NCBI GenBank assembly: GCA_015654985.1
Contig: JAATFW010000223.1
Location: forward strand, 1-35,286
Length of the DNA: 35,286 nt
DNA from: Sphingobacteriales bacterium
Lineage (GTDB): Bacteria > Bacteroidota > Bacteroidia > Sphingobacteriales > Sphingobacteriaceae
Direction: 5' to 3'
Shown here: piece after piece, positions 18,126 through 35,286 of the stretch
Layout of the letters: each line of letters begins with the position of its first letter
Numbering within the stretch: the stretch's first letter is position 1
The notes under the pieces: generated by a model
Seen by the model: the letters and a program-made list of their open reading frames with translations, nothing else
Database searches by the model: none
What the model was told of the DNA's origin: nothing
Program-made: the position numbers and the translations under genes

Positions 18126-18148
18126 GCTATTTTAAAACGCTTTCTTAA

Positions 18149-19747: not shown

Positions 19748-19920
19748 ATGTTCTGTACAGTGTGTCAAATTAAGTATTATATATTCTTGTTACCAGCCTG
19801 TTCAGATAATAAGCAACGTTCAGCAGAGCGCCCGGTTGAGGGCCTTCTGGCAAAATATCCCGTAAAATCTCCCCGTAACATAGAACAGGGATAATTGATG
19901 CCGTTGTGTTATTGTTCATA

Positions 19921-21252
19921 TTAATGTACGATTAAATTGGATCCGATCTGTTCGAGGGTTTTTCCTTTTGTTTCGGGCATGAAGCGCCAGACAAATATCA
20001 ACTGAAGCACCATCATGACGCCGAAGAAGAAGAATGTGCTGCCTCCGCCCACTTTTTCAGACAAATAAGGAAAGCAAAAGGCAATGACAGCCGCCATGAT
20101 CCAGTGCGTGGAACTGCCGAGGGTTTGCCCTTTTGCCCTCACCTGGTTCGGAAAGATCTCCGAAATAAAAACCCATATTACAGCACCCTGCGAAAAGGCG
20201 AAAAAGGCAATGAATACCATCACATACACCGGTATGGCGAAGACGCTAAAACTTCCGGAGAAAAAAGTATAAGAAACCAGCGACAGGGAGATTATCAGGC
20301 CGAACGATCCAACCAGCATCAGTATCCTTCGCCCAACTTTATCAATAATGTTGATTCCAAGTAAGGTAAAGATGAAATTGATCAGGCCTATTCCTACCGT
20401 AGACAGCAGCGAGGAGTGCGCACCAAGTCCGGCCATTTCAAAAATTCGCGGTGCATAATATATAATGGCATTTATTCCCGATACCTGGTTGAAAAAGGCA
20501 AAAACAATAGCCAGTATCACCGGCGTTTTATAACGGCTGGAAAACAGGCTTTCATTTTTTTTCCTACCGGTATTCTTTATACCCGATCGTTGAATGGCCA
20601 CCAGCTCTTCATCACAATTTAAAGGGTCGATTATCCGGAGGATCTCCAGGGCACGGTTCGTTTCACCCCTCTTCAGGATGAGCCATCGCGGGCTTTCAGG
20701 GATAAAGTATATTAAAACCAGGAAAACCACCGATGGCACAGCCTGCACGCCAAGCATCAAACGCCATGAAGCATCACCCACCTGGCTTATCAGGTAATTA
20801 GACAGGTAAGAAATCAAAATACCCAGCACCACATTGAACTGGAATAATCCTACCAGCCTTCCGCGCTTATCTGCCGGGGATACTTCCGATATATAAACAG
20901 GGGCTGTTACAGACGATGCACCTACTCCTAAGCCGCCAAGAAATCTGAATACTAAGAAGATATACCAGTTATTCGTCAGCGATGTTCCTAACGAGGCAAG
21001 CAGATAGGCAACAGCAACAAAATAGAGTGTATTTTTGCGCCCGAAATAATCCGACGGTTTGGAGCCCAGGAGCGAACCGATAACCGTACCTATCAAAGCA
21101 ATGGAAATTGTTAAGCCATGTTCCAGAACAGAAAGGTGCCAGTAGTGCTGGATGGCCTTCTCTGCGCCCGAAATTACAGCAGTATCAAAACCAAACAGGA
21201 AACCTCCCAGGGCTACAACCATAGACCACGCCATGACGGAATTTTTACTCAT
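19921..21252 (-). CDS. MFS sugar porter (sugar:H+ symporter family)
   Basis: Twelve-TM inner-membrane transporter of 443 aa, somewhat short for the sugar-porter family. Diagnostic motifs are all there: GGFLFGFDTAVISGAEKAI in TM1, DYFGRKNTLY (RXGRR-type loop 2-3), PVYISEVSPADKRGRLVGLF, PESPRWLILKRG in the central loop, VSGINAIIYYAPRIF in TM7, DKVGRRILM and PETKGKTLEQI at the end. Its place at the head of a GH172-GH32 operon, opposite an HTCS regulator, suggests import of fructose or a small fructoside released in the periplasm. No fructokinase is encoded in the window, so the sugar must be phosphorylated by a gene elsewhere. Confidence 0.93.
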   Translation of the reverse strand: MSKNSVMAWSMVVALGGFLFGFDTAVISGAEKAIQHYWHLSVLEHGLTISIALIGTVIGSLLGSKPSDYFGRKNTLYFVAVAYLLASLGTSLTNNWYIFLVFRFLGGLGVGASSVTAPVYISEVSPADKRGRLVGLFQFNVVLGILISYLSNYLISQVGDASWRLMLGVQAVPSVVFLVLIYFIPESPRWLILKRGETNRALEILRIIDPLNCDEELVAIQRSGIKNTGRKKNESLFSSRYKTPVILAIVFAFFNQVSGINAIIYYAPRIFEMAGLGAHSSLLSTVGIGLINFIFTLLGINIIDKVGRRILMLVGSFGLIISLSLVSYTFFSGSFSVFAIPVYVMVFIAFFAFSQGAVIWVFISEIFPNQVRAKGQTLGSSTHWIMAAVIAFCFPYLSEKVGGGSTFFFFGVMMVLQLIFVWRFMPETKGKTLEQIGSNLIVH

Positions 21253-21569
21253 AATAAGTTTATAATTATAATTTAGTTTACCGCCTGCAAATTATCACGG
21301 ATGACGGGTTTGAGAGTACCGAAATGCTATCAAAAATCTTCAAAATTGTATATATATTCAAACCATTGATCGTCAAACAATTACATCATTTGTAAAATTA
21401 AATCTTCGATACTGTATCACCAATTCTTCGTTATTGTAACATGCCGGGCCTGCCGGAGGCAAAAATTATCACCGTGACTTTAGCTGAAATAAAAACATTA
21501 TTCCTAATTTTAGTCGCGGAAGCTCTTTTCCCTCCAATTATTGCCTGGTTAAAAATTATTTAACTCAAT
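21253..21569. promoter_or_regulatory. Divergent regulatory region of the fructan locus
   Basis: This 317-bp interval separates the MFS-GH172-GH32 operon from the HTCS gene and should hold both promoters and the HTCS operator. It is AT-rich, with a TGTATATATATTC tract near 21348-21361. I see no exact TAnnTTTG box and no clear operator repeat, so the sites are inferred from layout only. Confidence 0.4.
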
Positions 21570-24359
21570 ATGCGTCAGCAAAAGCCATTTATTTATATGT
21601 CGGGATTGACAGTTATTTTACTGCTGATAGCCGTATGCGGACTCAATTGCAGTAAGGAGTCCAAAAAGCAAACCTTCACTATTGCATTTTCACAATGTAC
21701 AGGCCTTGATTTATGGCGTAAAACCATGCTTAATGAAATGAAAACCGAGCTGTCCCTTCATCCCGGTGTTAATTTCATATATGCAGATGCACATGGCGAC
21801 AGTAAAACTCAGGTAAGGCAGGTTTCAAAGATGCTCCGCGAAAAAATAGACGTTCTGATTATTTCGCCGAACGAAGCCCAGCCGCTTACTGCAATAGTAG
21901 ATGAAGCATACCAGAATAATATCCCCGTAATTATTATCGACAGAAAAACGTCATCTTCCCTATACACCGCTTATATAGGGGCAGATAATTACGAATTGGG
22001 AAAGATGGCAGGGCACTATTTAGGTGCACTCTCTAAAGGACCGGTAAATTTAGTGGAGATAACGGGCCTGCCCGGATCGTCGCCTGCCATTGAGCGCGAC
22101 CGCGGTTTTACAGACGGCGTTCAACGATTTCCCAATATTCATATCAAAACCAAAATCCACGGCGATTGGCTAAAGCAAAACGCCGAAAAACAGCTATGGA
22201 AAATAAAAAGTCAGCTAAACGATATAAATGCCGTTTTTGCACATAACGACAATATGGCCCTGGGTGCACGCACTGTATTGAATGCCTTAAAATTAACCGG
22301 CAAAATAAAAGTGATCGGGGTAGATGCCCTGCCCGGCGAGGGCGGAGGCATGCAGATGGTTGATGATAAGCTGATTAACGCAAGCCTGGTTTATCCAACC
22401 TGCGGCAAAGAAGCTATCGCTACAGCGTTTAAAATACTGAATAAGGAACCTTTTGCACGCGAAAACATATTGAAATCACTGGTGGTCGATTCAACAAATG
22501 TGCAGTTGATGAAAATGCAGGTAAATAAAATAAACAGCCAGCAAAGCGACATCATTAAACAGCAAAGCCTGCTGGAAGATCTGCAAATGGTATATAAAGG
22601 CCAGCAGATGATCCTGAACATTATCGTGATCTTATTGGTGCTGGCCATTATTTTCGGAGGCCTGGCATTTTTCTCACTGATGGAAAACAGGAAGATCAAC
22701 AAAAGCCTCGAAGCCAAAAACAATGAGATACAATCGCAGCGGAATCAGTTGATTGAAATGTCGGCAAAGGCAGAAGCAGCTACAGAAGCCCGGCTAAACT
22801 TTTTCACCAACGTTACGCATGAGTTCCGTACCCCGCTTACCCTGATGCTGTCGCCTTTAAATGATATGCTTTGCAACGAAAAACTTACCGGTCTGGCAGG
22901 AAATGCACTGGGAATGGTCAATCAGAATGCTTACAGGTTATTAAAACTGGTGAATCAACTGATAGATTACCGCAAAATCGAAATTGATAAGCATAGCGTT
23001 AAAGCGTCGGAAAATAATATTGTAGAATACGTCAGGGATATTGTAGAAAGTTTCAGGTTCCATGCTAAGAAATTAAAAGTTCAGCTATACCTTATTCCAA
23101 CAGAAAGGGAAATCATAGTATGGTTTGATGTAAATATGCTCGATAAGGTATTTTTCAACCTGCTTTCCAACGCTATAAAATTCATTCCCGGAGAAGGCAG
23201 TGTTAAAGTTTATCTCCGTAAAGATGCCGGTTATGTTTATATAGATATACAGGATAACGGAAGCGGCATGTCTGAAGAAGACGCCTCGCTGATATTCGAT
23301 CAGTTTTACCAGGCCGATAATGCGCCCCGGCTGGGTTCGGGCATCGGACTTTCGCTGTCAAAGGAAATTATCGGGTTTCATCACGGACAAATATCCGTAC
23401 AGACCAAAAAGTGGGAAGGAACAACCTTTACCATTTCGCTTCCTTTAGGAGAAAGCCACTTCGATGCGGCAGAAAAAATACCAAACAAAAATGAGTGGCC
23501 GGATATGGATGAGCAGTCGAGGCCCTACCAGGAGGATATCGCAGATCTGCATCAACCGATAGAAACAGACTTTACGTGCACACCAAAAGAGCTGTCGGTT
23601 TTAATTATTGAAGATAATAATGACCTGCTTCAATACCTGACCCAAAAGTTTAGCGGGCATTTCGAAGTTTATAGTGCAAATAACGGGAATGAAGCAATTA
23701 CCCAGGCCTACGAAAAAGTTCCTGATATCATCATCACAGACATCGTATTACCGGGCTTCTCAGGCAAAGAAATTACCCGGCGTTTAAAGACAGACCTGAG
23801 AACCTCCCATATACCCATTATCCTGCTTACAGCACAAAACAGTAATGACCAGAAAATCTCCGGAATGCAATCGCTCGCAGACATCTATATTTCCAAACCC
23901 TTCAATTTTGATTATTTGCTTGCAAGCGTTCAAAATGTTCTGAAGAACAGGGAAATTTTAAAGGACCATTTTACAAGCGATATTACAGGCCCTGAAAAAT
24001 TAACGGTTTCAAAATCGCTTGACAAGAAGTTTATAAATGATTTTGCCGGCATCGTTGAAAAAAACCTGTCGAACGAAAATCTGAGCGTTGACGACCTTTG
24101 TAAACTGATCGGTATTTCGAGGGTCCAGTTATACCGGAAAGTAAAGGCCCTGTTAGGCTGCACTGTTAATGACTATATCTTAAGCAGGAGATTGAAAAAA
24201 GCCGCCTATTTATTGAATAACGAAAGCATGAGTATTGCCGAAATAACCTATGCCGTGGGGTTTTCAAGTCCGAATTATTTCTCAACAGCCTTTAAAGCTA
24301 AGTATGGCAGTTCGCCAACCCATTACCGTCCTCCCGGGGGACAGTGCTCTTTCAGATAA
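21570..24359 (+). CDS. Hybrid two-component system regulator with periplasmic sugar-binding sensor
   Basis: HTCS protein of 929 aa that senses sugar outside and activates transcription inside. N-terminal TM/signal (YMSGLTVILLLIAVCGLNC), type I periplasmic-binding domain (about 34-320; FTIAFSQCTGLDLWRKTM, VLIISPNEAQP, YIGADNYELGKMAG, FAHNDNMALGAR), second TM (about 347-370). Then HisKA with THEFRTPL (His417), HATPase (LLSNAIKF, DNGSGM, GSGIGLSLS), receiver (LIIEDNND; phospho-acceptor Asp724 in ITDIVLPG; Lys in YISKPF) and an AraC HTH pair (about 825-925, FSSPNYFSTAFKAKYG). The architecture is that of B. thetaiotaomicron BT1754, which binds fructose and controls a fructan locus; with GH32 next door, fructose is the likely signal. 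Its last 37 bp overlap the convergent peptidase gene. Confidence 0.95.
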   Translation: MRQQKPFIYMSGLTVILLLIAVCGLNCSKESKKQTFTIAFSQCTGLDLWRKTMLNEMKTELSLHPGVNFIYADAHGDSKTQVRQVSKMLREKIDVLIISPNEAQPLTAIVDEAYQNNIPVIIIDRKTSSSLYTAYIGADNYELGKMAGHYLGALSKGPVNLVEITGLPGSSPAIERDRGFTDGVQRFPNIHIKTKIHGDWLKQNAEKQLWKIKSQLNDINAVFAHNDNMALGARTVLNALKLTGKIKVIGVDALPGEGGGMQMVDDKLINASLVYPTCGKEAIATAFKILNKEPFARENILKSLVVDSTNVQLMKMQVNKINSQQSDIIKQQSLLEDLQMVYKGQQMILNIIVILLVLAIIFGGLAFFSLMENRKINKSLEAKNNEIQSQRNQLIEMSAKAEAATEARLNFFTNVTHEFRTPLTLMLSPLNDMLCNEKLTGLAGNALGMVNQNAYRLLKLVNQLIDYRKIEIDKHSVKASENNIVEYVRDIVESFRFHAKKLKVQLYLIPTEREIIVWFDVNMLDKVFFNLLSNAIKFIPGEGSVKVYLRKDAGYVYIDIQDNGSGMSEEDASLIFDQFYQADNAPRLGSGIGLSLSKEIIGFHHGQISVQTKKWEGTTFTISLPLGESHFDAAEKIPNKNEWPDMDEQSRPYQEDIADLHQPIETDFTCTPKELSVLIIEDNNDLLQYLTQKFSGHFEVYSANNGNEAITQAYEKVPDIIITDIVLPGFSGKEITRRLKTDLRTSHIPIILLTAQNSNDQKISGMQSLADIYISKPFNFDYLLASVQNVLKNREILKDHFTSDITGPEKLTVSKSLDKKFINDFAGIVEKNLSNENLSVDDLCKLIGISRVQLYRKVKALLGCTVNDYILSRRLKKAAYLLNNESMSIAEITYAVGFSSPNYFSTAFKAKYGSSPTHYRPPGGQCSFR

Positions 24360-26536
24360 TTTGTAAAGAGCGTAGAAAGATGTGTACTTGTACCCTCTTT
24401 TTCCGAAATAGAGTGAGTGCGGTTGGGATACGACATTAGTTGAAACTGTTTATTGTATCTGATCAGCTCGTTAATCAGAAGTTCAGCATTCTGATAATGC
24501 ACATTATCGTCTCCCGTCCCATGGATATATAACAGATTTCCCTGAAGATTTTTAGCGTAATAAACAGGAGAACCTTTTATAAAGGGCTGAATATCCTCAC
24601 GCGGATTTCCCATATACCTTTCCTGATAGATGTTATCATAGCTCTGCTGGTTAGCAACAGCAGCTACAGCAATACCGGTTTTATAGATCTCCGGATACTG
24701 GAACAAGAGATTCAGAGTTGAAGAACCTCCGCCGCTCCAACCCCACACAGCTATTCTTGATGTATCAACAAAGGGCCATTTCAGGATTTCCCTCGCAGCC
24801 ATTGCCTGATCTCTGATGTTGAGGATTCCGATATTTTTATAGATAGATTTACGCCATTCTCTCCCTTTAGGGGCCGGAGTTCCGCGGTTATCTACAGAAA
24901 TGTAGATGTAACCGTCTTCCGCCAGGTTTTTATAGAGTGCGTTTCTGCCCCTGCCGAAAGCATCAGTTACTGTTTGAGAAGCAGGTTCGCCATACACAAA
25001 AAACAGCACCGGATATTTCTTCTTTGCGTCAAAATTCATGGGTTTCGACATCCATCCGTCCAGCTCAATTCCATCAGCAGTGGTAACCTTAAAGAACTCA
25101 ACAGGAGGAACCCCGGGATTCAATACAGCATTATGACTGGTGCCTTTTTGTAATATTGTATATTTCGGAAGGCCCACAACCTGTCCCTGTAACATAGTGT
25201 TCGTATTACTATAAGAATGAAGAGCAATTTTCCCGTTTGGAGAGATCCTGTAGGTATGGGTACCAGGCTCGGATGAAGGGGTTACTCTTGTTGCTTGTCC
25301 TCCCTTAATACTTACCCTGTAAAGATATTTCTGAGTAGCATTTTCAGGTGAAGCCATAAAATAAATAAAACCAGCTTTCTCGTCAATAAGATTAACACTG
25401 ATGATATCATAACTGCCTTTGGTGATCAGGGATGCTCTTCCCGCACGGCTGATCCTGTAAATATGCCGCCATCCATCCTTCTCGCTAACCCATAAAAAGT
25501 CTTTATTCCCCGAAAGCCATTCCCATCCGGAGGGATCATCTTCATTCCAGGACGATTTAATATCTATCCAGGCATCATCTTTTTCAGTATATACCGGCTT
25601 TACGGTTCCTGCTGAAGCATTACATAACATAATCCTGCTCTCATTTTGTTTCCGGTTCAATTGCTGAATGATGAGTTCATCTGAGTTGGCCGCCCACTCC
25701 ATCCTGGGGATATAATGCTGTACAGGATCGCCAGGTACATCCATCCAGGTAACTTTAGTATTATCTACTGCAACTACTGCAATTTTGCAGGAGCTCGGAT
25801 CTTCACCAGCTTTTGGATATTCAACAGGCACGGTAAAGGAATACAAAGAATCGGTAGTATTCAGCATCAGATAATTACGGATCTTTCTGGCATCAATCTG
25901 CCAGAACGCAATTTTCCTACTGTCTGGCGACCACCTGAATCCATCTCTGCAGCCAAACTCTTCTTCGTACACCCAGTCAAAGGTACCGTTGATAACACGA
26001 TCAGTCCCATCGTTTGTTAATTTAGTGATCTTGTTAGTCGAAAGATCCTCCGCATACAGATTATGCATACTTACATAAGCAACCTTTGTACCGTCGGGAG
26101 AGATTTTTGCAAACATCAGCGATGAGGGCGGCAGAGTCTTTCCCAACTGCTTAAGAGACCCCGTATTCCGGTCATATAAAAAATAATCGCCCTTTGTATC
26201 ATACCGCCACACACGTTGGGTATTGTTCATAATAACAAGTTTCCGGCGGTCGTCAGAAAACAAAAACCGTTTTATAGTTATAGGGCCATTGCTTCCCTGC
26301 ATGGTAAGCATTTGTTTGCTTATCACAACCGACCTTGAGCCCGTGCGGCAGTCATTGCTTATAACTTCGCCATCTTCCACACTATAAAAAGAATAACCAT
26401 CTTCGGACCACTGATTCTCCTGCCTGAACTGAGCAAAAATTGAAGAGCTGCCCGTAAGCAACAGAATAAGAGTAAACCACAGGACAGCCAAACTTCTGAA
26501 GCAGCCCTTTTTAATTGTTCCTGAATTTAAATACAT
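24323..26536 (-). CDS. DPP IV-type prolyl dipeptidyl peptidase (S9 family)
   Basis: Secreted serine peptidase of 737 aa, removing X-Pro (or X-Hyp-like) dipeptides from peptide N-termini. N-terminal signal anchor (LAVLWFTLILLLTGSSSIFA, then Q). A DPPIV_N beta-propeller (about 90-500) includes the VYEEEFG double-Glu motif that fixes the substrate N-terminus. The alpha/beta-hydrolase domain has the triad Ser601 in WGWSGGGSS, Asp676 in GTGDDNVH and His708 in YPNRTHSIS. It lies downstream of an AraC regulator and near a hydroxyproline operon, which suggests use of proline/hydroxyproline-rich peptides; close relatives have wider substrate ranges. The start codon falls inside an interspersed repeat (26533-26600), and the stop overlaps the end of the HTCS gene on the other strand. 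Confidence 0.93.
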   Translation of the reverse strand: MYLNSGTIKKGCFRSLAVLWFTLILLLTGSSSIFAQFRQENQWSEDGYSFYSVEDGEVISNDCRTGSRSVVISKQMLTMQGSNGPITIKRFLFSDDRRKLVIMNNTQRVWRYDTKGDYFLYDRNTGSLKQLGKTLPPSSLMFAKISPDGTKVAYVSMHNLYAEDLSTNKITKLTNDGTDRVINGTFDWVYEEEFGCRDGFRWSPDSRKIAFWQIDARKIRNYLMLNTTDSLYSFTVPVEYPKAGEDPSSCKIAVVAVDNTKVTWMDVPGDPVQHYIPRMEWAANSDELIIQQLNRKQNESRIMLCNASAGTVKPVYTEKDDAWIDIKSSWNEDDPSGWEWLSGNKDFLWVSEKDGWRHIYRISRAGRASLITKGSYDIISVNLIDEKAGFIYFMASPENATQKYLYRVSIKGGQATRVTPSSEPGTHTYRISPNGKIALHSYSNTNTMLQGQVVGLPKYTILQKGTSHNAVLNPGVPPVEFFKVTTADGIELDGWMSKPMNFDAKKKYPVLFFVYGEPASQTVTDAFGRGRNALYKNLAEDGYIYISVDNRGTPAPKGREWRKSIYKNIGILNIRDQAMAAREILKWPFVDTSRIAVWGWSGGGSSTLNLLFQYPEIYKTGIAVAAVANQQSYDNIYQERYMGNPREDIQPFIKGSPVYYAKNLQGNLLYIHGTGDDNVHYQNAELLINELIRYNKQFQLMSYPNRTHSISEKEGTSTHLSTLFTNYLKEHCPPGGR

Positions 26537-26600
26537 TTCATCTATAAAACTGTTCTTCAGAGAAAGATGAGAGACCGGTAAAACAAGTTTATCTTAGTTT
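26533..26600. repeat. Interspersed palindromic repeat, copy B
   Basis: Second copy of the element at 13431-13535, lacking the inner hairpin segment. It includes the peptidase start codon and its whole 5' leader, so any promoter of the peptidase lies in or beyond it. Confidence 0.6.
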
Positions 26601-26615
26601 AAATGACGAGTGCTG

Positions 26616-27497
26616 TTAGCTTACATTTTTTAGATAACTATCAATGTATTCGCGGGGAGAATTTCCTATTATACTCTTAAACACCCTGTTAAAATTAGTA
26701 ATGCTGTTAAATCCGCAATTATAGGCAACAGTAGAAATACTCTCATACATGCCTGCCGTGAGCTTCTTACACGCTTCATTGATCCGTGTTTCATTAAGGA
26801 AAGAGATAAAAGTATGCCCGGTATGCTTCTTAAAGTACCGGCAAAATGCCTGGGGCGTCATATGTGCCGCATCCGCTACATGTTCAAGAGTGATATCAGC
26901 CTGATATCGCTGTAAAATAAAATTATATATATTACTGATCCGGATGCCCTCGCTTTCGCTGAAAGTAGCCGAATGCCCAAAAGAAGAAAGAGGGTCAAGC
27001 TTAATTTTCATTTTACTAAGAAACTTCAGTAATAAAAAAAACTGCATAAGCTGATCTGGACCGGCTGAACGTTTTACATCAACCATGAGTTGAGTAACCT
27101 CTTCGCTATACATGGCAGGAAGTTTAAAACCCTGCGCATGCTGATCTATAAATGCTTTTAGAGATTTCATCTCCGGAAGACCAAAAAGTGAAGCCAGAGG
27201 CCCGCCCGGATTAAAGAACAGCATGAGTGCTTTTATTCTTTTATCACTATGGACATCAAAATACTCAGGATTGCTTTTAAACAAATGCGGCTGATTGGCT
27301 CCCAGGAAATAAATATCGCCCGGTTTGAAGCTATGCATATTATTTCCAGCTACCAGTGTGCCCTCTCCTTTTTGTATCCACGCTATCTGAGCTTCAGTAT
27401 GACGGTGGAGATAAGGATAAAAATGCGGAAGATTGTCTTGCTGAACAATTACGCTCTTGTCGTGAGCTATTGGGATTGTAAACTGTAATACTTTCAT
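26616..27497 (-). CDS. AraC-family regulator with cupin sensor domain
   Basis: DNA-binding activator of 293 aa. The N-terminal cupin (about 15-100) has the metal/ligand-barrel pattern HRHTEAQIAWIQKGEGTLVA then FKPGDIYFLGANQPHLF. The C-terminal AraC pair of helix-turn-helices (about 190-288) reads ITLEHVADAAHMTPQAFCRYF and STVAYNCGFNSITNFNRVFK, ending GNSPREY. An unusually good Shine-Dalgarno (AAGGAGGT) lies only 3 nt before the ATG, closer than is usual. It lies 80 bp upstream of the peptidase gene and 380 bp downstream of the hydroxyproline operon, all on the minus strand, so it likely responds to hydroxyproline or a related catabolite and controls one or both. That role is inferred from position. 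Confidence 0.9.
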   Translation of the reverse strand: MKVLQFTIPIAHDKSVIVQQDNLPHFYPYLHRHTEAQIAWIQKGEGTLVAGNNMHSFKPGDIYFLGANQPHLFKSNPEYFDVHSDKRIKALMLFFNPGGPLASLFGLPEMKSLKAFIDQHAQGFKLPAMYSEEVTQLMVDVKRSAGPDQLMQFFLLLKFLSKMKIKLDPLSSFGHSATFSESEGIRISNIYNFILQRYQADITLEHVADAAHMTPQAFCRYFKKHTGHTFISFLNETRINEACKKLTAGMYESISTVAYNCGFNSITNFNRVFKSIIGNSPREYIDSYLKNVS

Positions 27498-27877
27498 GAG
27501 ACCTCCTTTTTGATGAACTGAATATACAAATATTAACTCAATATTAAAAGACTGTTATCTTATAGGGTTAAAATATAAGAATCATCTGCTAATTTAAGAC
27601 TAAAACAGCCCTAATGACATTTAACAAATCCAATTATCAGTTTATTAATTACACAATTAACATAAAACACTTAGTCACTATAAAAAAAAAAAAGAATCAA
27701 TAATAAAAATACCAATTATTAAAATAAACACTTTATAAAATTCCAGCATTAAGATCAAAAACAAATAAAATCAATTATTACCTGTTTTTGATTAAATATT
27801 TCAGATAAAAACGGCAGCACAAAAAAAAAGGAGCCCCCGTATACCGGAAACCCCTTCATTAATCAGAAAGAACACGC
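27498..27877. other. AT-rich intergenic region, AraC promoter and operon terminator
   Basis: No gene found. The interval is extremely AT-rich, with long A-tracts (about 27681-27693). Its upper end holds the terminator of the hydroxyproline operon; its lower end must hold the promoter of the AraC gene, where a TAATATTTG sequence close to the -7 consensus lies near 27530. Confidence 0.5.
27821..27857 (-). terminator. Rho-independent terminator of the hydroxyproline operon
   Basis: On the minus strand AAGGGG pairs with CTCCTT, UUU with GGG (wobble) and CCG with CGG around a GTATA loop, followed by nine T. It lies about 20 bp after the stop of the FAD oxidoreductase. Confidence 0.75.
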
Positions 27878-29125
27878 TTAGCTAAAACGATCAGGCAAAA
27901 AAGCAGCAATATCTATATCTGTTTTTTCCTCATTGATAACCTGGCTTACCAGTTTACCGGAAGCAGGCCCGAGGCTTAACCCCATCATACCATGCCCTGT
28001 TGCTATGATCATATTACTATATTTTCTGCTCCTGCCTATATATGGAAGTCCGTCCGGAGAGGATGGCCTGAACCCAAACCAAATATCTTTTTCTGCAGGA
28101 ACGTCAATATTTAATTCCGGAAAATAAGCGGGCACCGCTTCAACTATGCCTCTTACCCTGTTCATATTTATCCGGTTGTTAATTTTATCAATTTCCATAG
28201 TGCCCCCATAACGGAGACTTCCGTTCATCGGTGTGATAGCCACTCTTGCTTCAGCCAGCAAAGCAGGGATATGCATTCGCTTTTCAGGCTCTTTCACCAT
28301 AAAAGAATACCCTTTGCCGGGTAATAGAGGGATCTTCAGACCAGCCAGCCTGGCCAGAGAAGGCGACCAGGAGCCTCCCGAAATAATATAATGATCTCCG
28401 CTCCATTTCTCATTGCCGGAGTAAACGGCTGAAATCCTGTTTCCAGCAGTTTCAATCCGGCTCACTTCATGGCCTCTCACAATCTTTACTCCCCTGCTTT
28501 CCAGAACGTTTACAAGTCCTGTTATTAGCTGATTCGGATAAACATGGGCATCACATTTGTAATGTACCGCCCCGAGAACGTCAAGTTTTAGTCCCGGCTG
28601 CAGTTCCCTGCATTGTTCAGGAGAAAGCACGGCCATGTCGAGGCCCAATTCTTTCGCCTTAGTTGCCAGATGAGCTTCTTCTTCACCTGCCTTTTCCGTT
28701 TTGTAAAACATCAATATTCCCTTTTTCTCCAGCCCAAATTCAAACCCGCCGTTGCTGTCAAGATCTTCATAAAGCCTTTTACTTAAAAGTGAAATATCCC
28801 TCAGCGGAACAGCCGAACGTTCTGCATGTTTCGCGTTGGCGTGTTTCAGAAATTTGATCCCCCATGAAAAAAGATCTGCACTTAACGAAGGTTTAACATA
28901 AAAAGGGCTTTTACTGTTAAACATCCACTTTATCCCCTGCTGTACCATACCAGGGGCCGCCAACGGTATAAAATGGCTCGGCACGATCATGCCGGCATTA
29001 CCAAAAGAACAACCGTCTGTTAAATCTCCTTTTTCAAGGATGGTGACGTCAAACCCTGCTTCATTCAAGAACTTCGCAGAACACAGACCTATAATTCCGC
29101 CACCTGTTATAATTACACTTGCCAT
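27878..29125 (-). CDS. DadA-like FAD oxidoreductase, probable D-hydroxyproline dehydrogenase
   Basis: Flavoprotein of 415 aa in the DAO/DadA family. The FAD-binding motif is at the N-terminus (VIITGGGIIGLCSAKFLNEA, then GFDVTILEKGD), followed by GCSFGNAGMIVPSHF, typical of DadA, and a C-terminal FAD block (IIATGHGMMGLSLGPASGK). It is the last gene of the four-gene operon, 27 bp after the epimerase. In trans-4-hydroxy-L-proline breakdown the epimerase product, cis-4-hydroxy-D-proline, is oxidised by such an enzyme to 1-pyrroline-4-hydroxy-2-carboxylate, the substrate of the DapA-family deaminase encoded here. D-proline or general D-amino acid oxidation is an alternative, but the gene context argues for the hydroxyproline role. 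Electrons probably pass to the respiratory chain. Confidence 0.88.
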   Translation of the reverse strand: MASVIITGGGIIGLCSAKFLNEAGFDVTILEKGDLTDGCSFGNAGMIVPSHFIPLAAPGMVQQGIKWMFNSKSPFYVKPSLSADLFSWGIKFLKHANAKHAERSAVPLRDISLLSKRLYEDLDSNGGFEFGLEKKGILMFYKTEKAGEEEAHLATKAKELGLDMAVLSPEQCRELQPGLKLDVLGAVHYKCDAHVYPNQLITGLVNVLESRGVKIVRGHEVSRIETAGNRISAVYSGNEKWSGDHYIISGGSWSPSLARLAGLKIPLLPGKGYSFMVKEPEKRMHIPALLAEARVAITPMNGSLRYGGTMEIDKINNRINMNRVRGIVEAVPAYFPELNIDVPAEKDIWFGFRPSSPDGLPYIGRSRKYSNMIIATGHGMMGLSLGPASGKLVSQVINEEKTDIDIAAFLPDRFS

Positions 29126-29152
29126 TTTTTATAATTAGTAAAGATCGCCAGG

Positions 29153-30154
29153 TTAAAGCACCTGGAAACCGTGAGCATAAGGATCATCATCGTCGATCCT
29201 GATCGTATTGTAACCATATATTTTTGCCCAGCCCTCAACACTGGGTATAATCGCCTGATACTCTCCCAATGTAATGGTATCTTCCACTCTTCCTGTAAAT
29301 TTACTTCCGATAATACTCTCATGAATAAAGGCTTCTCCTTTTTTTAATTTACCCCTGGCAAACCACTGTGCCATCCGGGCTGAAGTTCCGGTTCCGCATG
29401 GAGAGCGGTCTATCGCTTTTTCTCCGTAAAATACAGCATTTCTTGCCGTTGCTTCATCAGAAAGAGTAGCACCTGCCCAGAGAATATGTGTACAGGTATT
29501 GATAGTTGGATCAAGAGGATGAATAAAGGTATACTTTTCATTGATCCTCTTCCTTAATTCCCGGCTCCATGCTATCAGTTGGCCGGCACTATAGTTTTCC
29601 AGTCCCTTAAAATTTGGCTGCGGGTCAACAATAGCATAATAGTTCCCTCCATATGCCACATCCATGGTCAGCACACCAAGATCCGGGCATTCTGCTTCAA
29701 TATCCTTAGCAGCAAGGTAAGCAGGCACGTTCCGTAATTTAACAGAAACAACCTTTTGTCCCTCCTGCCTGTATTCAATAACTACCAATCCAGCCGGCGC
29801 TTCCATTCTCACAATACCCGGCACCTTTGGCTGGATCAGCCCTTCTTCAATAGCAATAGTAATAGTCCCGATAGTCCCATGTCCGCACATCGGAAGGCAG
29901 CCGCTGGTCTCGATAAACAAAACCGCCACATCATTTTCCGGATCATGCGGAGGATAAAGGATGCTTCCCGACATCATGTCATGCCCGCGGGGTTCAAACA
30001 TCAGGCCTGTTCTTATCCAGTCGTACTCCTTCAAAAAATGCTGCCGTTTCTGGCTCATTGTTTCTCCCGCAAGGGTTGGCCCCCCTCCGGCAACCAGCCT
30101 CACCGGATTACCGCAGGTATGAGCATCTATACAAAAAAATATTTTACTTGCCAT
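29153..30154 (-). CDS. 4-hydroxyproline 2-epimerase (proline racemase family)
   Basis: 333 aa, standard length. It interconverts trans-4-hydroxy-L-proline and cis-4-hydroxy-D-proline without a cofactor. Both catalytic cysteines are present: Cys90 in PMCGHGTIG and Cys253 in DRSPCGTGTS. In the related trans-3-hydroxyproline dehydratases the first Cys is Ser or Thr, so this is an epimerase/racemase. IDAHTCGNPVRLV near the N-terminus and the GLMFEPRGHDMMSG block also match hydroxyproline epimerases more than proline racemases. It follows the aldehyde dehydrogenase with no gap (stop and ATG adjoin) and precedes the FAD enzyme by 27 bp, so translation is probably coupled. Confidence 0.93.
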   Translation of the reverse strand: MASKIFFCIDAHTCGNPVRLVAGGGPTLAGETMSQKRQHFLKEYDWIRTGLMFEPRGHDMMSGSILYPPHDPENDVAVLFIETSGCLPMCGHGTIGTITIAIEEGLIQPKVPGIVRMEAPAGLVVIEYRQEGQKVVSVKLRNVPAYLAAKDIEAECPDLGVLTMDVAYGGNYYAIVDPQPNFKGLENYSAGQLIAWSRELRKRINEKYTFIHPLDPTINTCTHILWAGATLSDEATARNAVFYGEKAIDRSPCGTGTSARMAQWFARGKLKKGEAFIHESIIGSKFTGRVEDTITLGEYQAIIPSVEGWAKIYGYNTIRIDDDDPYAHGFQVL

Positions 30155-31735
30155 TCAATCTTTAGTCCATTTATTATTAACTTTTCGCCAGATATTAAGT
30201 GGATTCCCATCCTGCAACTCTGCCGGAAGCAGATCATTTCGCCAGTCCTGCCAGGCCAGAGGCCTCACAAAACGGTAAACCGCGTCAGCGCCGACAGAAG
30301 TAAAACGACTGTCGTTAGTTGCCGGGAAAGGCCCTCCATGTTGCATAGCATGATTCACTTCTACTCCGGTTGGCACACCGTTCAGTACTATTCTTCCGGT
30401 TTTACGGCAAAGAGAATCAATCAGACCGGCATAATGATCCAGCTCTTCCTCTTCGGCCATTACCGTTACGGTTAACTGCCCGTCCAGGCAATTTACAACC
30501 TGTTCCATCTCCCGTTCATTTTCGGCAACTACGAGCAGGGAATAGGGGCCGAAAATTTCTTCCTTTAACTTTTTATTTGCAATAAAATCAGATGCCGGAA
30601 CACTCGCAAGAATGGCCACCGACTGGTTGAAACGAAAAGGGCCTTCCCTTTCGGAACGGGCAAGCAGCGAAACTCCTTTTTCCTGTAATATCTCATTCGA
30701 TAATGTATGAAAATTTCTGCAGATCCCGGCGGTAAGCATCGTAGCCGAAGGAACTTCCGTAAACAATTTTACCAGCTCAGAAATAAAAAGATCAAGTGAA
30801 GGATCTTTTACAGCGATCATTAACCCGGGATTCGTACAAAACTGACCTGCACCAACGGTAATTGAAGCAGCATATTTTGCAGCCAGACTGGCAGAGTTCT
30901 TTTTTATCGCCTCAGGAAGAAATACTACCGGATTGATACTTCCCATTTCAGCGAAAACCGGAATAGGAATACTCCTCTCTAAAGCCATCTTAGAAAGGGC
31001 CATTCCTCCTCTGTAAGAACCTGTGAAAGTTACTGCCTTTGTTAAGGGATGCTTTACGAGATTCTCTCCGACAGAATAACCCGTATCATACAGCAGGGAA
31101 AAAACTCCCTCCGGCATTCCTGTAGCTAAAGCGGCTTTCATAATCGCTTCACCAACAAGAGCGCTGGTACCGGGATGTGCTGGATGAGCCTTCACAACTA
31201 CAGGGCACCCCGCAGCCAGAGCGGAAGCGGTGTCTCCGCCGGCAACCGAAAATGCAAGTGGAAAATTGCTTGCCCCAAATACAACTACCGGCCCCAGTGG
31301 AATGAACATTTTTCTTAAATCCGGTCCCGGAACCGGACTGCGGTCGGGCAAGGCGGTATCAATTACCGCATTTACCCATGAGCCTTCTTCTACAAGCCCC
31401 GCAAACAGATTAAGCTGCCCTGTTGTCCTCCCTGTTTCACCGTTAATCCGGCCTTCCGGAAGTCCGCTTTCGGCAACCGCCCTCTCTGTTAAAGAAGGCC
31501 CAAGAGCTTTTATTTCCGCAGCAATAGCTCTTAAGAATGCCGCTTTCCGGGTTCTGTCAAGAAGACTGTACGGTTTAAATGCTTTTTGAGCTGCAGCTAA
31601 AGCGGCTTCTGCCTGTTGCTCTCCTGCCGGATAAAACATGCCGGGCAATTCCCCGCCAGTGGAAGCATTAACAGCTTTAAATCCCTCTTTATCAGAAGAA
31701 ACAAACTGACTACCGATTATATTTCGTCCGTCCAT
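30155..31735 (-). CDS. Alpha-ketoglutaric semialdehyde dehydrogenase (2,5-dioxovalerate dehydrogenase)
   Basis: NADP-type aldehyde dehydrogenase of 526 aa, matching the length of the KGSADH group. Motifs: FGASNFPLAFSVAGGDTASA for cofactor binding, TGSYRGG, general base Glu263 in FAEMGSINP and nucleophile Cys300 in GQFCTNPG. It oxidises alpha-ketoglutaric semialdehyde to alpha-ketoglutarate, the final step of hydroxyproline breakdown (also of L-arabinose and D-glucarate routes). In this operon, flanked by the deaminase and the epimerase, the hydroxyproline route is the natural reading; the arabinosidase beyond the operon keeps the non-phosphorylative arabinose route open as an alternative, but no arabinose dehydrogenase or dehydratase is seen. 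Confidence 0.92.
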   Translation of the reverse strand: MDGRNIIGSQFVSSDKEGFKAVNASTGGELPGMFYPAGEQQAEAALAAAQKAFKPYSLLDRTRKAAFLRAIAAEIKALGPSLTERAVAESGLPEGRINGETGRTTGQLNLFAGLVEEGSWVNAVIDTALPDRSPVPGPDLRKMFIPLGPVVVFGASNFPLAFSVAGGDTASALAAGCPVVVKAHPAHPGTSALVGEAIMKAALATGMPEGVFSLLYDTGYSVGENLVKHPLTKAVTFTGSYRGGMALSKMALERSIPIPVFAEMGSINPVVFLPEAIKKNSASLAAKYAASITVGAGQFCTNPGLMIAVKDPSLDLFISELVKLFTEVPSATMLTAGICRNFHTLSNEILQEKGVSLLARSEREGPFRFNQSVAILASVPASDFIANKKLKEEIFGPYSLLVVAENEREMEQVVNCLDGQLTVTVMAEEEELDHYAGLIDSLCRKTGRIVLNGVPTGVEVNHAMQHGGPFPATNDSRFTSVGADAVYRFVRPLAWQDWRNDLLPAELQDGNPLNIWRKVNNKWTKD

Positions 31736-31832
31736 GTGTGTTAAGTGATACCTCGTAAGTTAATAAGTCACTAAGCGTAAAACTCTGAATATAATTAAAA
31801 GAATTTTATACTTACCTCCCTGTATTTGCATG

Positions 31833-32765
31833 TTAAACTGTAACAGTAAGCCTGCCCCAACTACCTTCAGGTAATTCAGGACGTACAGCAAGTGCATCAT
31901 TAATGATCTTAAGTACCTTTTCTCTCTCCACACCTTCAATCACCAAACGCGGGCTTCTAACAGTCTCTGTGCCTATTCCGGTCATTACTTCGGCTAATTT
32001 GATATACTGAACCAGTTTCGGATGAATATCTAATTCAAGTACCGGGTGAAACCAGCGGTAGATAGCCAGCGCCTCATCATGTCTGCCTGCTTTCACAAGC
32101 CGGTAAATAGATACCGTTTCTCTTGGAAAAGCATCTACCAGACCCGCAACCCATCCGTCAGCTCCCATCACCAGGCTTTCCATGGCAAGAGGATCTACAC
32201 CACACATAATTTTAAACCGGTCGCCAAACCTGTTTTTCATCCTGGTAATATTAGCTACATCTCTTGTAGATTCTTTTACTGCCCGGATATTGTCCAGTTC
32301 AGCAAGCGCAGAAAACATATCAAGAGTAACCTCTATTTTATAATCTACCGGATTATTATAGATCATTACGGGCAGAGAGGTTGATTTCGCAATTTCTTTA
32401 AAGAACGTTACCGTTTCGCTGTCATCCGCTTTATATCTCATAGGCGGCAGCAACATTAGTCCATCAGCGCCCAGCCTTTCTGCCCGCTGAGCAATAGAAA
32501 TAGCAGTTTTAGTAGATTGTTCAGCAATATTCAGCACCAAAGGGATTTTTCCTTCAACCACATCTATTGTATGTTCCAATAATACAAATTTTTCTTCTTC
32601 ACTCAATACACTGGCTTCGCCCAAAGAGCCGCCAAGGATAAGGCCATCTACTCCGGCTTCAAGCTGCGCCAGAATGTTCTTGTCGTAAGCGATAAGGTCA
32701 AGTTCATCGTTCACGGTAAATTTAGTAGTAATTGCAGGATAAACTCCTTTCCATTCAACTTTCAT
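31833..32765 (-). CDS. DapA-family lyase, probable 1-pyrroline-4-hydroxy-2-carboxylate deaminase
   Basis: TIM-barrel class I aldolase-type enzyme of about 310 aa (ATG at 32763-32765; an ATG three codons upstream is possible). Schiff-base Lys167 in IRAVKESTRD and Tyr139 in MIYNNPVDY are in place. The substrate loop reads GGSLGEAS, not GTTGE as in true dihydrodipicolinate synthases, so lysine synthesis is unlikely. In bacterial hydroxyproline pathways a DapA-family member (LhpC type) converts 1-pyrroline-4-hydroxy-2-carboxylate to alpha-ketoglutaric semialdehyde plus ammonia. It is the first gene of the operon, 97 bp before the dehydrogenase, with the divergent arabinofuranosidase on the other side. 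Confidence 0.9.
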   Translation of the reverse strand: MKVEWKGVYPAITTKFTVNDELDLIAYDKNILAQLEAGVDGLILGGSLGEASVLSEEEKFVLLEHTIDVVEGKIPLVLNIAEQSTKTAISIAQRAERLGADGLMLLPPMRYKADDSETVTFFKEIAKSTSLPVMIYNNPVDYKIEVTLDMFSALAELDNIRAVKESTRDVANITRMKNRFGDRFKIMCGVDPLAMESLVMGADGWVAGLVDAFPRETVSIYRLVKAGRHDEALAIYRWFHPVLELDIHPKLVQYIKLAEVMTGIGTETVRSPRLVIEGVEREKVLKIINDALAVRPELPEGSWGRLTVTV

Positions 32766-32910
32766 ATTGTACATTTTTATTTCCTCAAAATTACGGACAG
32801 CGCAAATTGACTTTTACATTAAAATTAGCAGGTACTTACTCATTTTTAACTAAAATACAGAAATGTTACCTGATAAAATACTGCCAATACTTGCAAAAAA
32901 ACTTTTAGAA

Positions 32911-32924
32911 GGATCGGGTGATCC
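32911..32924. promoter_or_regulatory. Palindrome in the divergent hydroxyproline/arabinosidase promoter region
   Basis: GGATC-GGGT-GATCC is a perfect inverted repeat midway between the divergent deaminase and arabinofuranosidase genes. A TATCTTTA box close to the -7 consensus follows at 32930-32937 on the plus strand. It could be a shared operator for both transcripts, perhaps for the AraC protein; inference only. Confidence 0.35.
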
Positions 32925-32995
32925 TGTCCTATCTTTATACTTTCAGATAACACACATACATCAATAGACTCAATTCATAAATTAAAGCAGAAGAA

Positions 32996-35286
32996 ATGAA
33001 AAGTTGGATCGTTTACTCAATCCCGGTATTATGTTTATTTTCCTTTACCGCAGCATTAAGCCAATCTTACGTTCCTGAATGGAATGATCAGAAAATGAAG
33101 ATAAAACCTTATGTTCCGGTAAATGCATACTCTTTTAATCTTAAAGACATACAACTTCTCGAAAGCCCGTTTACCCGGGCAATGAAAGCAGACGAAGCTT
33201 ATCTCTTATCTATAGAGCCCGACCGTTTACTTTCTCAGTTCCGCACACATTCGGGCCTGAAAGCCAAAGGTGAAAAATATGGGGGATGGGAGGACTCCGG
33301 GTTGGCCGGCCATACGCTGGGACACTACCTCTCGGCTATTTCCATGCAATATGCATCTACCAGAAATCCGGAATTTCTGAAACGGGTAAACTATATTGCA
33401 GACGAACTGGATGAATGTCAGGAAGCCAGAAAGACTGGCTACATTGGAGCTATTCCAGGAGAAGATACACTTTGGGCGGAAGTTAAAGCAGGAAATATAA
33501 GATCAAGAGGGTTCGACCTTAATGGAGCATGGTCTCCCTGGTATACCGTTCATAAAGTATTCGCAGGACTTTTGGACGCTAACCTCTATTGCGAAAACAC
33601 CAGGGCTATTAAAATTGCTGAAGGACTTGCCGGCTGGACAGGAGATATTCTCGGGGGCCTGAATGATGAACAATTGCAAAGAATGCTTCTGTGCGAATAC
33701 GGCGGCATGAATGATGCTTTAGTTAACTTATATGCTTTAACAGGCAATAAAAAGTACCTCGACCTATCCTATAAATTTTACGATAAACGCATCCTTGACC
33801 CTCTGGCTGCAGAAAAAGACAGTCTCGCAGGAAAACACTCCAACACCCAAATCCCTAAAGTAATAGGAAGCGCGCGGCGCTATGAATTAACCGGCGATAA
33901 ACGGGATGCGGTCATCGCAAAATTTTTCTGGGAAACCATAACAAAAGATCACTCCTACGCAACAGGTGGAAACAGCAATTATGAATATCTGGGCGAACCC
34001 CGAAAGCTGAATGATAAACTGACTGACAACACCACAGAAACCTGCAATACCTATAACATGCTGAAGTTAACCCGCCACCTATTTGCCCTGGAACCTTCAG
34101 CAGAATTGATGGACTACTATGAAAAGGCGCTGTATAACCACATTCTTGCTTCTCAAAATCATGACGATGGAATGATGTGTTACTTCGTTCCATTGCGTAT
34201 GGGTGGCCGGAAAGAATTTAGCGATCCCTTTCATACCTTCACCTGCTGTGTCGGTTCGGGTATGGAAAATCATGTAAAATATAACGAAAGTATCTACAGC
34301 CGCGGAAAAGACGGAAGTCTGTATGTTAACCTGTTTATACCTTCTACACTCTCATGGAGCGAAAAGCGGATCACGATCAGGCAGGAGGGCTATATTCCGT
34401 CTGACCAAACCGTATTATTCACACTCTCAACATCAAAAGCCATAAGTTTTCCTCTTAGGATCAGAAAACCTAAATGGGCAAAAAACTATACTCTTTCAGT
34501 AAACGGGCAAGCTATAAACCTCCGGCCAGATAGTGAGGGATACCTTGTGTTGAACAGAAAATGGAAAAACAACGACCTGATCAGCTTTACCCCCGCTGCA
34601 GATCTTTATACAGAGGCAATGCCTGATAATCCCAGCCGCAAGGCGGTATTTTACGGACCTGTACTGCTGGCAGGAATATTGGGAAAGACAGAACCTGATC
34701 CTTCAGAAATCCCCGTTTTTGTAACCAACGAAACAAACGTCAATAACTGGTTAAAGCAAACGGATAAAAAAAATTTAATCTTCCGGACTGCCAGTTTTAC
34801 CATTCCTCAAAATATAGAGATGAAACCATTTAACCAAATAGAGGATGATCATTACACGGTATACTGGGATGTTTTCACTCCCGAAACATGGGCCGTTCAG
34901 CAAAAAATATATGAAGAGGAAAAAAGAAAACAACGCGAGCTGGAAGCCCGTACTGTCGACATCCTTCGGGTAGGTGAAATGCAACCTGAACGCGACCATA
35001 GCTTTACCGGTGAAAAGGCATTTACAGGAGAAGATCATAACCGAAAATTCCGTTCAACCAGAGGTAACGGCGGGTACATGTCATTTGAGATGAAAACAGC
35101 AGCCGCTTCCAGGAACACCCTCATCCTTACCTATTGGGGTATGGATAACAGGGGTCGCATCTTTGATATTTTAGTCAACGACAAAGTAATAGTTACCGAG
35201 GATTTAAATAAATATAAAGAAAGCCGCTTTTACGATATATCCTATGCTATTCCCGAAGAATTAACGAAAGGCAAAGACAAGGTAAC
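32996..35286 (+). CDS. GH127/GH146 (DUF1680) beta-L-arabinofuranosidase, 3' end outside the window
   Basis: Open from the ATG at 32996 to the window edge without a stop (763 codons visible; relatives of this type are about 780-800 aa, so little is missing). Signal peptide MKSWIVYSIPVLCLFSFTAA then LSQ. The (alpha/alpha)6 barrel shows GHTLGHYLSAISM, WYTVHKVFAGLLDA and NTQIPKVIGSARRYEL. The zinc/catalytic set is complete: Glu348 and Cys350 in TETCNTYNMLKL, Cys417-Cys418 in TCCVGSGMENH; in Bifidobacterium HypBA1 the equivalent Cys is the nucleophile. Beta-sandwich domains follow, then a coiled linker (KIYEEEKRKQRELEAR) and a C-terminal domain. It releases beta-L-arabinofuranose from hydroxyproline-linked arabino-oligosaccharides (GH127) or from pectic arabinan side chains (GH146). 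Sequence style is nearer the Bacteroides GH146-like type. It is divergent from the hydroxyproline operon, 230 bp away. Confidence 0.92.
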   Translation, partial: MKSWIVYSIPVLCLFSFTAALSQSYVPEWNDQKMKIKPYVPVNAYSFNLKDIQLLESPFTRAMKADEAYLLSIEPDRLLSQFRTHSGLKAKGEKYGGWEDSGLAGHTLGHYLSAISMQYASTRNPEFLKRVNYIADELDECQEARKTGYIGAIPGEDTLWAEVKAGNIRSRGFDLNGAWSPWYTVHKVFAGLLDANLYCENTRAIKIAEGLAGWTGDILGGLNDEQLQRMLLCEYGGMNDALVNLYALTGNKKYLDLSYKFYDKRILDPLAAEKDSLAGKHSNTQIPKVIGSARRYELTGDKRDAVIAKFFWETITKDHSYATGGNSNYEYLGEPRKLNDKLTDNTTETCNTYNMLKLTRHLFALEPSAELMDYYEKALYNHILASQNHDDGMMCYFVPLRMGGRKEFSDPFHTFTCCVGSGMENHVKYNESIYSRGKDGSLYVNLFIPSTLSWSEKRITIRQEGYIPSDQTVLFTLSTSKAISFPLRIRKPKWAKNYTLSVNGQAINLRPDSEGYLVLNRKWKNNDLISFTPAADLYTEAMPDNPSRKAVFYGPVLLAGILGKTEPDPSEIPVFVTNETNVNNWLKQTDKKNLIFRTASFTIPQNIEMKPFNQIEDDHYTVYWDVFTPETWAVQQKIYEEEKRKQRELEARTVDILRVGEMQPERDHSFTGEKAFTGEDHNRKFRSTRGNGGYMSFEMKTAAASRNTLILTYWGMDNRGRIFDILVNDKVIVTEDLNKYKESRFYDISYAIPEELTKGKDKV

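Follow-up and report, generated by a model that had tools for sequence, protein, structure and literature searches.

A putative hydroxyproline-rich glycoprotein regulon in Sphingobacteriaceae that couples a GH146-type arabinosidase to a hydroxyproline operon

Genes at the locus

The window analysed here, i.e., the entire 35,286-nucleotide contig C73 of a Sphingobacteriales bacterium assembly (4.73 Mb in 355 contigs, ~88% completeness), carries at 24323-35286 an operon for trans-4-hydroxy-L-proline (Hyp) catabolism, an AraC-family regulator, a dipeptidyl peptidase IV (DPP IV)-type peptidase and a divergent β-L-arabinofuranosidase of glycoside hydrolase (GH) family 146. Based on the linkage of these genes in relatives and on a motif common to their promoters, we propose that this block is a regulon consuming hydroxyproline-rich glycoproteins (HRGPs), and a compact member of a locus that recurs in Bacteroidota, with a probability of about 0.7.

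The Hyp genes, araC and the DPP IV gene span 24323-32774, all on the minus strand. They are transcribed in the order dihydrodipicolinate synthase (DHDPS)-family lyase, aldehyde dehydrogenase (ALDH), 4-Hyp epimerase, FAD-dependent D-amino-acid-dehydrogenase-like protein (DAO), AraC and DPP IV, separated by 97, 0, 27, 380 and 79 bp. The securest anchor of the operon is the 4-hydroxyproline 2-epimerase (29153-30154), which scores 595 bits against NCBIfam NF010578 (cut-off 376) and keeps both cysteine motifs, MCGH and SPCGT. The first gene encodes a DHDPS-superfamily lyase (31833-32774, PF00701) with VKES and IYNNP motifs, predicted to be the 1-pyrroline-4-hydroxy-2-carboxylate deaminase; its score of 163 lies under the dapA cut-off of 206. 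The ALDH (30155-31735, PF00171), with motifs GQFC and FAEMG, is the predicted α-ketoglutarate semialdehyde dehydrogenase, and its top NCBIfam name, 2,5-dioxovalerate dehydrogenase, is reached at 96.5 bits, far under the cut-off of 750. The DAO (27878-29125, PF01266; GGGIIG motif present), the predicted cis-4-hydroxy-D-proline dehydrogenase, scores 258.5 bits against NF001933, under the cut-off of 383. With all three under their curated NCBIfam cut-offs, the pathway roles of the lyase, ALDH and DAO are predictions from operon context, and enzyme specificities beyond the family assignment of the epimerase are likewise predicted. An epimerase above its cut-off with two catalytic cysteines, co-operonic with DAO, DHDPS-family and ALDH genes, identifies this as an epimerase-type trans-4-Hyp operon.

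Downstream lie the AraC-family regulator (26616-27497, PF02311 and PF12833), the probable regulator of the locus, and the DPP IV-type (S9B) peptidase (24323-26536, PF00930 and PF00326), predicted to release X-Pro and X-Hyp dipeptides; DPP IV accepts Hyp at P1. The peptidase has the DPPIV_N domain, the sequence DWVYEEE at residue 187 (a DW.YEEE motif, which we take to be the DPP IV hallmark) and the Ser/Asp/His motifs GWSGG (residue 599), DDNVH and RTHS. Its best match in the PDB is 5olj, followed by btDPP4 chains, all of them bacterial DPP IV enzymes, and its hydrophobic N-terminus was judged by eye to be a signal peptide. The four-enzyme Hyp gene set, the AraC regulator and the secreted DPP IV-type peptidase of the original prediction are therefore all present, as judged by Pfam, NCBIfam, PDB and motif evidence.

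The arabinosidase gene (32996-35286, plus strand) starts divergently, 221 bp from the DHDPS end of the Hyp operon, so that the two units would be separate transcripts. The secreted-looking protein matches PF07944 (411 bits), PF20736, DUF6805 and, weakly, DUF4986, and is cut at residue 763 by the contig end; as the window comprises the contig in full, nothing to the right of 35286 can be read, where GH127 and/or DUF5695 would be the predicted neighbours. Its best PDB match is 5opj, which we take to be BT0349 (an identity consistent with PMC10850190), with 520 bits over residues 46-760, followed by 209 bits to Bll3HypBA1 (8k7x), and GH127 chains reach 80 bits or less. An ETC at residue 348 and a TCC at 416 align with the ETC and CC of 5opj and 8k7x, for which roles as zinc-binding Glu/Cys and Cys nucleophile are described (PMC10850190). 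With a PF07944 catalytic domain, a GH146 enzyme as nearest solved relative and the zinc-ligand and nucleophile residues kept, the protein is by sequence GH146-type, not GH127. The arabinosidase of the original prediction is thus present and divergent, whereas the analogy to GH127 HypBA1 fails: HypBA1 (3wkw) matches with 52 bits and only in part. In relatives, a separate cluster (c7) is of the GH127 type.

Linkage and gene content in other genomes

The linkage was surveyed in three overlapping sets of genomes, with at least four genomes of the third also in the first. The first took, from named genomes, the best 80 epimerase loci out of at least 586. GH146 was found at 15/80 of these loci, GH127 at 16/80 and either one at 28/80, and of the 54 loci flanked by 8 kb or more to each side, 22 have a GH127 or GH146 gene (L061, whose epimerase was missed by the ORF caller, is not counted in the 54). 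Among the 28 loci, 11 have the arabinosidase on the opposite strand and 17 have it co-directional with the Hyp genes. Runs of GH127-GH27-DHDPS-ALDH-epimerase occur in Mucilaginibacter and other Bacteroidota, epimerase-DAO-DUF885-GH146 with gene calls that overlap in Chitinophaga oryziterrae (L050), and epimerase-DAO-S9-GH146 in Sinomicrobium (L068), and in L039, L043 and L064 a GH127 or GH146 gene lies between epimerase and DAO. In other families, GH146 or GH127 stands among Hyp genes on one strand. Two records titled Williamsia and Thalassovita (L077, L078) hold Bacteroidota-like Hyp operons with 74% epimerase identity, and these bins may be mislabelled.

The second survey covered 61 genomes of the family, the window's included, of which 20 have an epimerase over the cut-off. 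PF07944 matches of 90 bits or more were counted at 67 places, and in 7/20 genomes (6/19 when the window's own genome is left out) such a gene is no more than 10 kb from the epimerase, where random placement predicts 0.26. As a control, GH3 genes (at 130 places across these 20 genomes, 66 handled by script and the remainder by eye) lie within 10 kb in 0/20 genomes and within 15 kb in 1/20.

The third survey, of 301 family genomes including the window's, found the epimerase in 159. Close GH146 genes, defined by at least 63% identity, numbered 42 places in 41 genomes; a threshold of E 1e-200 gave 48 places in 47 genomes, and the six places at 46-55% identity were left out. Counting the window, all 41 of these genomes carry the epimerase, and 30 of the 42 places are no more than 8 kb away from it, every one of the 30 divergent. 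The original prediction, which was to be refuted if the two units never travelled together in related genomes, survives this check. The co-occurrence (40/40, P 5e-13) is inflated by phylogeny, the 61-genome sample having had the epimerase in 3/4 g12 and 4/4 g13 genomes. Linkage beyond chance is nevertheless observed, with this phylogenetic caveat attached.

In a tree of 44 GH146-type proteins, from which the partial copy of L010 was omitted, the window protein falls in a clade of 17 with an ultrafast bootstrap of 100 and an SH-like approximate likelihood-ratio value (SH-aLRT) of 98. The clade consists of 14 Hyp-locus rows, the window included, together with L094 (G032), which is also linked, L092 (G012), with GH146 at the edge of its contig, and L093 (G057), in which the Hyp operon adjoins GH127 instead. 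The Hyp-locus label requires 5 changes on this tree vs. 12.8 for shuffled labels, and 0/500 shuffles were as low. The Hyp rows of the tree were picked via the epimerase, so that their linkage is by construction; the 301-genome survey is less biased. Two GH146 proteins outside the window clade, L110 (G048) and L116 (G032), are also encoded within 10 kb of an epimerase.

Gene content was counted in the 29 other linked contexts (up to 40 kb each, some SusC copies not adjoining GH146). DHDPS, epimerase, DAO and the AraC cluster occur in 29/29 and ALDH in 27. Less constant are SusC (20), DUF5695 (19), an amino-acid permease (17), DUF885 (16), aminopeptidase P-like M24B and M1 peptidases (14 each), SusD, S9 and M24 (11 each), GH127 (8) and GH27 (3). 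The neighbour of GH146 on its Hyp side varies (M24B 11, SusC 10, DHDPS 5, and GH127, AraC and M1 one each), and the linkage therefore survives rearrangement. SusC stands directly beside GH146 in 13/40 relatives' contexts. Among the unlinked GH146 places, 11 of 12 contexts were fetched, and 9/11 show one or more of AraC, SusC, DUF885, GH127 and GH27 alongside; in L152, GH27 is the sole partner gene. The S9 cluster of the relatives (c11) lacks the DPP IV glutamate motif, as written, in 8 of 8 proteins, so the window DPP IV looks analogous rather than orthologous to it.

Two recurrent neighbours have no assigned function. DUF885 may be a peptidase, which is a guess: HExxH was found in 0/22 of the proteins, an 18-row alignment keeps H411-E412-L413 and G416-H417, and the PDB relatives are named lipoproteins or uncharacterised. 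DUF5695 (~917 residues and secreted-looking, e.g., L011:13737-16490) is a frequent neighbour of the GH146/Hyp loci and matches no PDB sequence at E values up to 0.1. Its AlphaFold model is poor (mean pLDDT 46) and shows a helical middle flanked by beta regions; such a layout, at this low confidence, is also seen in (α/α)6-barrel glycosidases. A GH127-GH27-Hyp operon runs on one strand in L016, L018, L019, L027, L028, L029 and L036, and GH27 is present in 13 of the 80 named loci, once as a short fragment. GH27 could remove the Ser-linked α-galactose of extensin and, if true, this would be a further specific link. A glutaminase A-like six-hairpin protein lies beside GH127 next to Hyp genes in L064 and L075; a similar one lies beside a GH127-like gene in the window's own genome (L090, 4597-9165), in a stretch where Hyp genes were not recognised.

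Elsewhere in the same genome, contig C208 (L089, 130-11865) carries ECF sigma/FecR genes, a SusC-like gene, a gene SusD-like by position, GH43, a GH51-like gene and a GH127 gene cut by the contig end, and contig C56 (L088, 1-8504) carries a likewise cut GH127, a GH51-like gene, GH43 and a hybrid-sensor-like gene. Both contigs end inside a GH127 of the cluster that adjoins GH146 in some relatives. They are possible second arabinan or HRGP loci and perhaps neighbours of C73, to which no sequence here joins them. No GH43 was found among the window ORFs given to Pfam; the GH43 genes of this genome sit on C56 and C208. Directly next to the Hyp locus, 16602-24359 groups GH32, DUF2961 (presumably GH172), a sugar porter of the major facilitator superfamily and a hybrid two-component sensor whose periplasmic domain is of a sugar-binding type, and is probably a locus for fructan or fructose anhydride. 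At the opposite contig end, 2-6047 holds a SusD/SusC pair and a thioredoxin-like protein, a separate and unexplained uptake locus.

A motif in the promoters of both arms

Motifs were sought by expectation maximisation on upstream regions of the relatives, with the window excluded from training. The 40 GH146 upstream regions gave GC.g.T..Ta.cCagATTTTA.C (log-likelihood 468 vs. 70 for one shuffle), the 33 araC upstream regions gave Ca.at..T..c.gtATTTTAaC (300 vs. 63), and the 29 DHDPS upstream regions repeated this core on the opposite strand (214 vs. 61), whereas those of SusC gave a different motif. The three sets are partly dependent, as the intergenic region of GH146 is in some cases also that of araC or DHDPS. 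Under the GH146 matrix, 39 of the 40 training promoters score above 99% of 408 control promoters and, outside the GH146 intergenic region, so do 15/28 araC promoters.

Scanned over the whole window, the araC matrix finds position 27565, 5′ of araC, with 22.5 bits and 32870, in the GH146/Hyp intergenic region, with 21.4 bits; its next match has 12.3. The DHDPS matrix places 32827 first (16.1 bits) and 27567 second (15.4), and the GH146 matrix places 32871 first (19.7) and 27566 third (12.8). Three regulatory sites, all on the minus strand, are thus predicted: 27565-27590 5′ of araC, 32870-32894 in the 221-bp divergent promoter (GH146 and araC matrices), and 32827-32850 with the same core closer to DHDPS (DHDPS-trained matrix). 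AraC probably binds this 24-bp motif in the divergent promoter and in its own promoter.

Beyond the window, 51.9 kb of other DNA from the same genome reaches maxima of 18.7 bits (GH146 matrix) and 15.5 bits (araC matrix), and no convincing motif was found on C56/C208 (best 9.4/8.4 bits with the GH146 matrix and 12.1/14.1 bits with the araC matrix). The named loci without GH146 were scored against the 99% level of 409 controls, whose maxima are 23.4 and 26.0. With the GH146 or the araC matrix, respectively, 3 or 4 of 12 GH127, 3 or 11 of 27 araC, 2 or 5 of 49 DHDPS and 2 or 1 of 6 M24B promoters passed, and with either matrix 0/10 GH27, 0/12 DUF885 and 0/2 SusC. Two other approaches were set aside: a genome-wide regulon search allowing two mismatches was too loose (61 matches vs. 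30 for a reversed control), and MAFFT footprinting of the direct GH146-DHDPS intergenic regions was unconvincing alone.

Proposed function and comparison with known systems

The coupling of arabinosidase and Hyp genes put forward in the original prediction is well supported by the linkage within the family, the co-directional genes in other families, the peptidases and SusC/SusD of relatives and the shared motif. A glycosidase, peptidases, a permease (in many relatives) and a pathway from Hyp to α-ketoglutarate have HRGP as their simplest common substrate, and we therefore infer that the substrate is an HRGP, i.e., extensin or possibly arabinogalactan protein (AGP). The exported GH146 would remove β-L-arabinofuranose (Araf) from Hyp-arabinosides or their arabino-oligosaccharides, and the DPP IV would trim the exposed Pro/Hyp-rich peptides, a task that may fall in relatives to other S9, aminopeptidase P-like M24B and M1 peptidases and perhaps DUF885. 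Free trans-4-Hyp would then enter the cell and be epimerised, oxidised, deaminated and oxidised again to α-ketoglutarate, with AraC acting on the shared motif such that sugar and Hyp arms respond to one signal. In the published excerpts drawn on here, the Hyp of extensin carries Araf-β1,2-Araf-β1,2-Araf-β1-Hyp chains, the GH146 enzymes XeHypBA1 and Bll4HypBA1 cleave Araf-β-Hyp, and BT0349 cleaves β1,2-arabinobiose and an arabinan-derived arabinotetraose (PMC10850190, PMC6085000). Extensin would fit the β1,2 chemistry.

Several observations weigh against an HRGP regulon, which is predicted from sequence. Hyp operons often stand alone: GH127/146 is lacking from the fetched stretch at 52 of the 80 loci of the first survey, including 32 of the 54 that have 8 kb or more to each side. 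Of the 42 close GH146 places, 12 are unlinked to an epimerase, and two of the 11 fetched contexts among them (L156, and L157 on a contig of 12 kb) lack every partner gene. The 29 linked places besides the window are confined to two genera (17 and 12), so that the P values of the third survey overstate independence, and the Hyp-locus GH146 of Sinomicrobium (L068) falls outside the window clade. The motif is unevenly spread as well. Outside the GH146 intergenic region, a minority of DHDPS (6/24) and SusC (3/16) promoters and no DUF885 (0/20) or M24B (0/3) promoter pass the 99% level with the GH146 matrix, the motif is missing from the GH146 (0/4), DHDPS (0/3) and araC (0/3) promoters of Chitinophagaceae/Flavobacteriaceae GH146 loci, and the second-best window match of the GH146 matrix (15.3 bits) falls inside the DHDPS gene. 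In the window, SusC/SusD, GH43 and GH51 were not found beside GH146, one side of which is hidden by the contig end, and no amino-acid permease was found among the scanned ORFs. Last, BT0349, the closest solved relative, belongs to a polysaccharide utilisation locus (PUL) for rhamnogalacturonan I (RG-I) and is reported to act on arabinan-derived oligosaccharides (PMC10850190).

This last point is also the starting point for a rather improbable alternative, a general plant-debris regulon in which GH146 acts on pectic arabinan or RG-I, Hyp comes from any source, and the two are co-regulated as wall signals. The separate GH127, GH43 and GH51-like clusters of the same genome on C56 and C208, which lack a convincing motif, would suit it. 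However, most other GH146 proteins of the family fall outside the window GH146 clade, which occurs in the 301 genomes only together with the epimerase, AraC and peptidases recur as neighbours, other families place GH146/GH127 within one-strand runs of Hyp genes, and pectin enzymes are not among the recurrent annotated clusters, not every neighbour having been annotated. A locus for collagen, gelatin or free-Hyp peptides, in which the Hyp operon, AraC and DPP IV form the functional unit and GH146 is a coincidental neighbour, seems very improbable to us. DPP IV and the Hyp pathway by themselves would suit collagen peptides, and the many epimerase loci without GH127/146 would be expected, but linkage exceeds expectation where the GH3 control gives none within 10 kb, the linked GH146 places are uniformly divergent, and the promoter motif is common to both arms.

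The same scheme could also be directed at AGP rather than extensin, which overlaps with the HRGP reading and which we regard as unlikely, if a serious contender. The GH146 enzyme Bll3HypBA1 acts on AGP and on Araf-β1,3-Araf (PMC10850190), and the GH27 genes of the named loci would be in keeping with such a substrate. However, the window GH146 is nearer BT0349 than Bll3HypBA1, and galactanase families were not seen among the annotated clusters, where many single neighbours are unannotated.

These loci may tentatively be regarded, at somewhat under even odds, as an undescribed Bacteroidota class in which GH146 or GH127 (sometimes with GH27), peptidases (DPP IV, aminopeptidase P, M1, DUF885) and a Hyp arm form one AraC regulon without a GH121 route, and DUF5695 and DUF885 are unrecognised HRGP enzymes. 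Most GH121 members are confined to Bifidobacterium and Xanthomonas (PMC7263609), so Bacteroidota presumably use another route; this is based on the published distribution, no GH121 search having been made. Extensins and similar HRGPs are cross-linked proteins of the cell wall, whose degraders and degradation genes are little known (PMC4454575). With a recurrent regulon in genera that are common and can be cultured (Mucilaginibacter, Pedobacter, Chitinophaga), HRGP degradation would become testable; Mucilaginibacter frigoritolerans (L008) and Pedobacter jejuensis (L030) are examples of culturable relatives with the linked arrangement. The locus offers candidate enzymes, a predicted substrate for the uncharacterised DUF5695 and DUF885, and a promoter motif for locating further members.

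Already known are the sugar arm, from Bifidobacterium and Xanthomonas, and the genes of the Hyp pathway. Among the matches listed from the open-licence PMC literature, judged by title and the start of the abstract, a joined arabinosidase-Hyp locus was not described, which is weak evidence. The hypBA1/hypBA2/hypAA cluster of Bifidobacterium longum JCM 1217 likewise uses a β-L-arabinofuranosidase for the Hyp-arabino-oligosaccharides of HRGPs (PMC7263609, PMC10850190), but consists, as excerpted, of the sugar arm only, with three enzymes (GH127, GH121, GH43) and a transporter, and employs GH127/GH121 rather than GH146. Xanthomonas euvesicatoria XCV2724/2728/2729 (GH146 XeHypBA1, GH43, GH121) does use GH146 on Araf-β-Hyp (PMC10850190), and a putative prolyl oligopeptidase gene, frameshifted there, adjoins xehypAA (PMC6085000); it belongs to a different phylum, and a Hyp catabolic operon is not mentioned in the excerpts cited. 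For 'Latescibacteria' (WS3), GH127 was proposed in silico to take part in extensin use, with sugar release, peptidases and transport described genome-wide rather than, in the portions cited, as a linked Hyp catabolic operon (PMC4454575).

From the Hyp side, the neighbourhood study of the proline racemase superfamily (eLife 03275 / PMC4113996) describes the same four enzyme families, and its main text contains none of the terms 'glycoside hydrolase', 'arabino' and 'Bacteroidetes'. Bacteroidota PULs are recognised by a SusC/SusD pair with a glycosidase, and in the window the contig ends beside GH146 with no such pair adjoining it. Finally, BT0349 of Bacteroides thetaiotaomicron stands in a pectic PUL, whereas the orthologue clade of the window GH146 is mostly found with Hyp operons.

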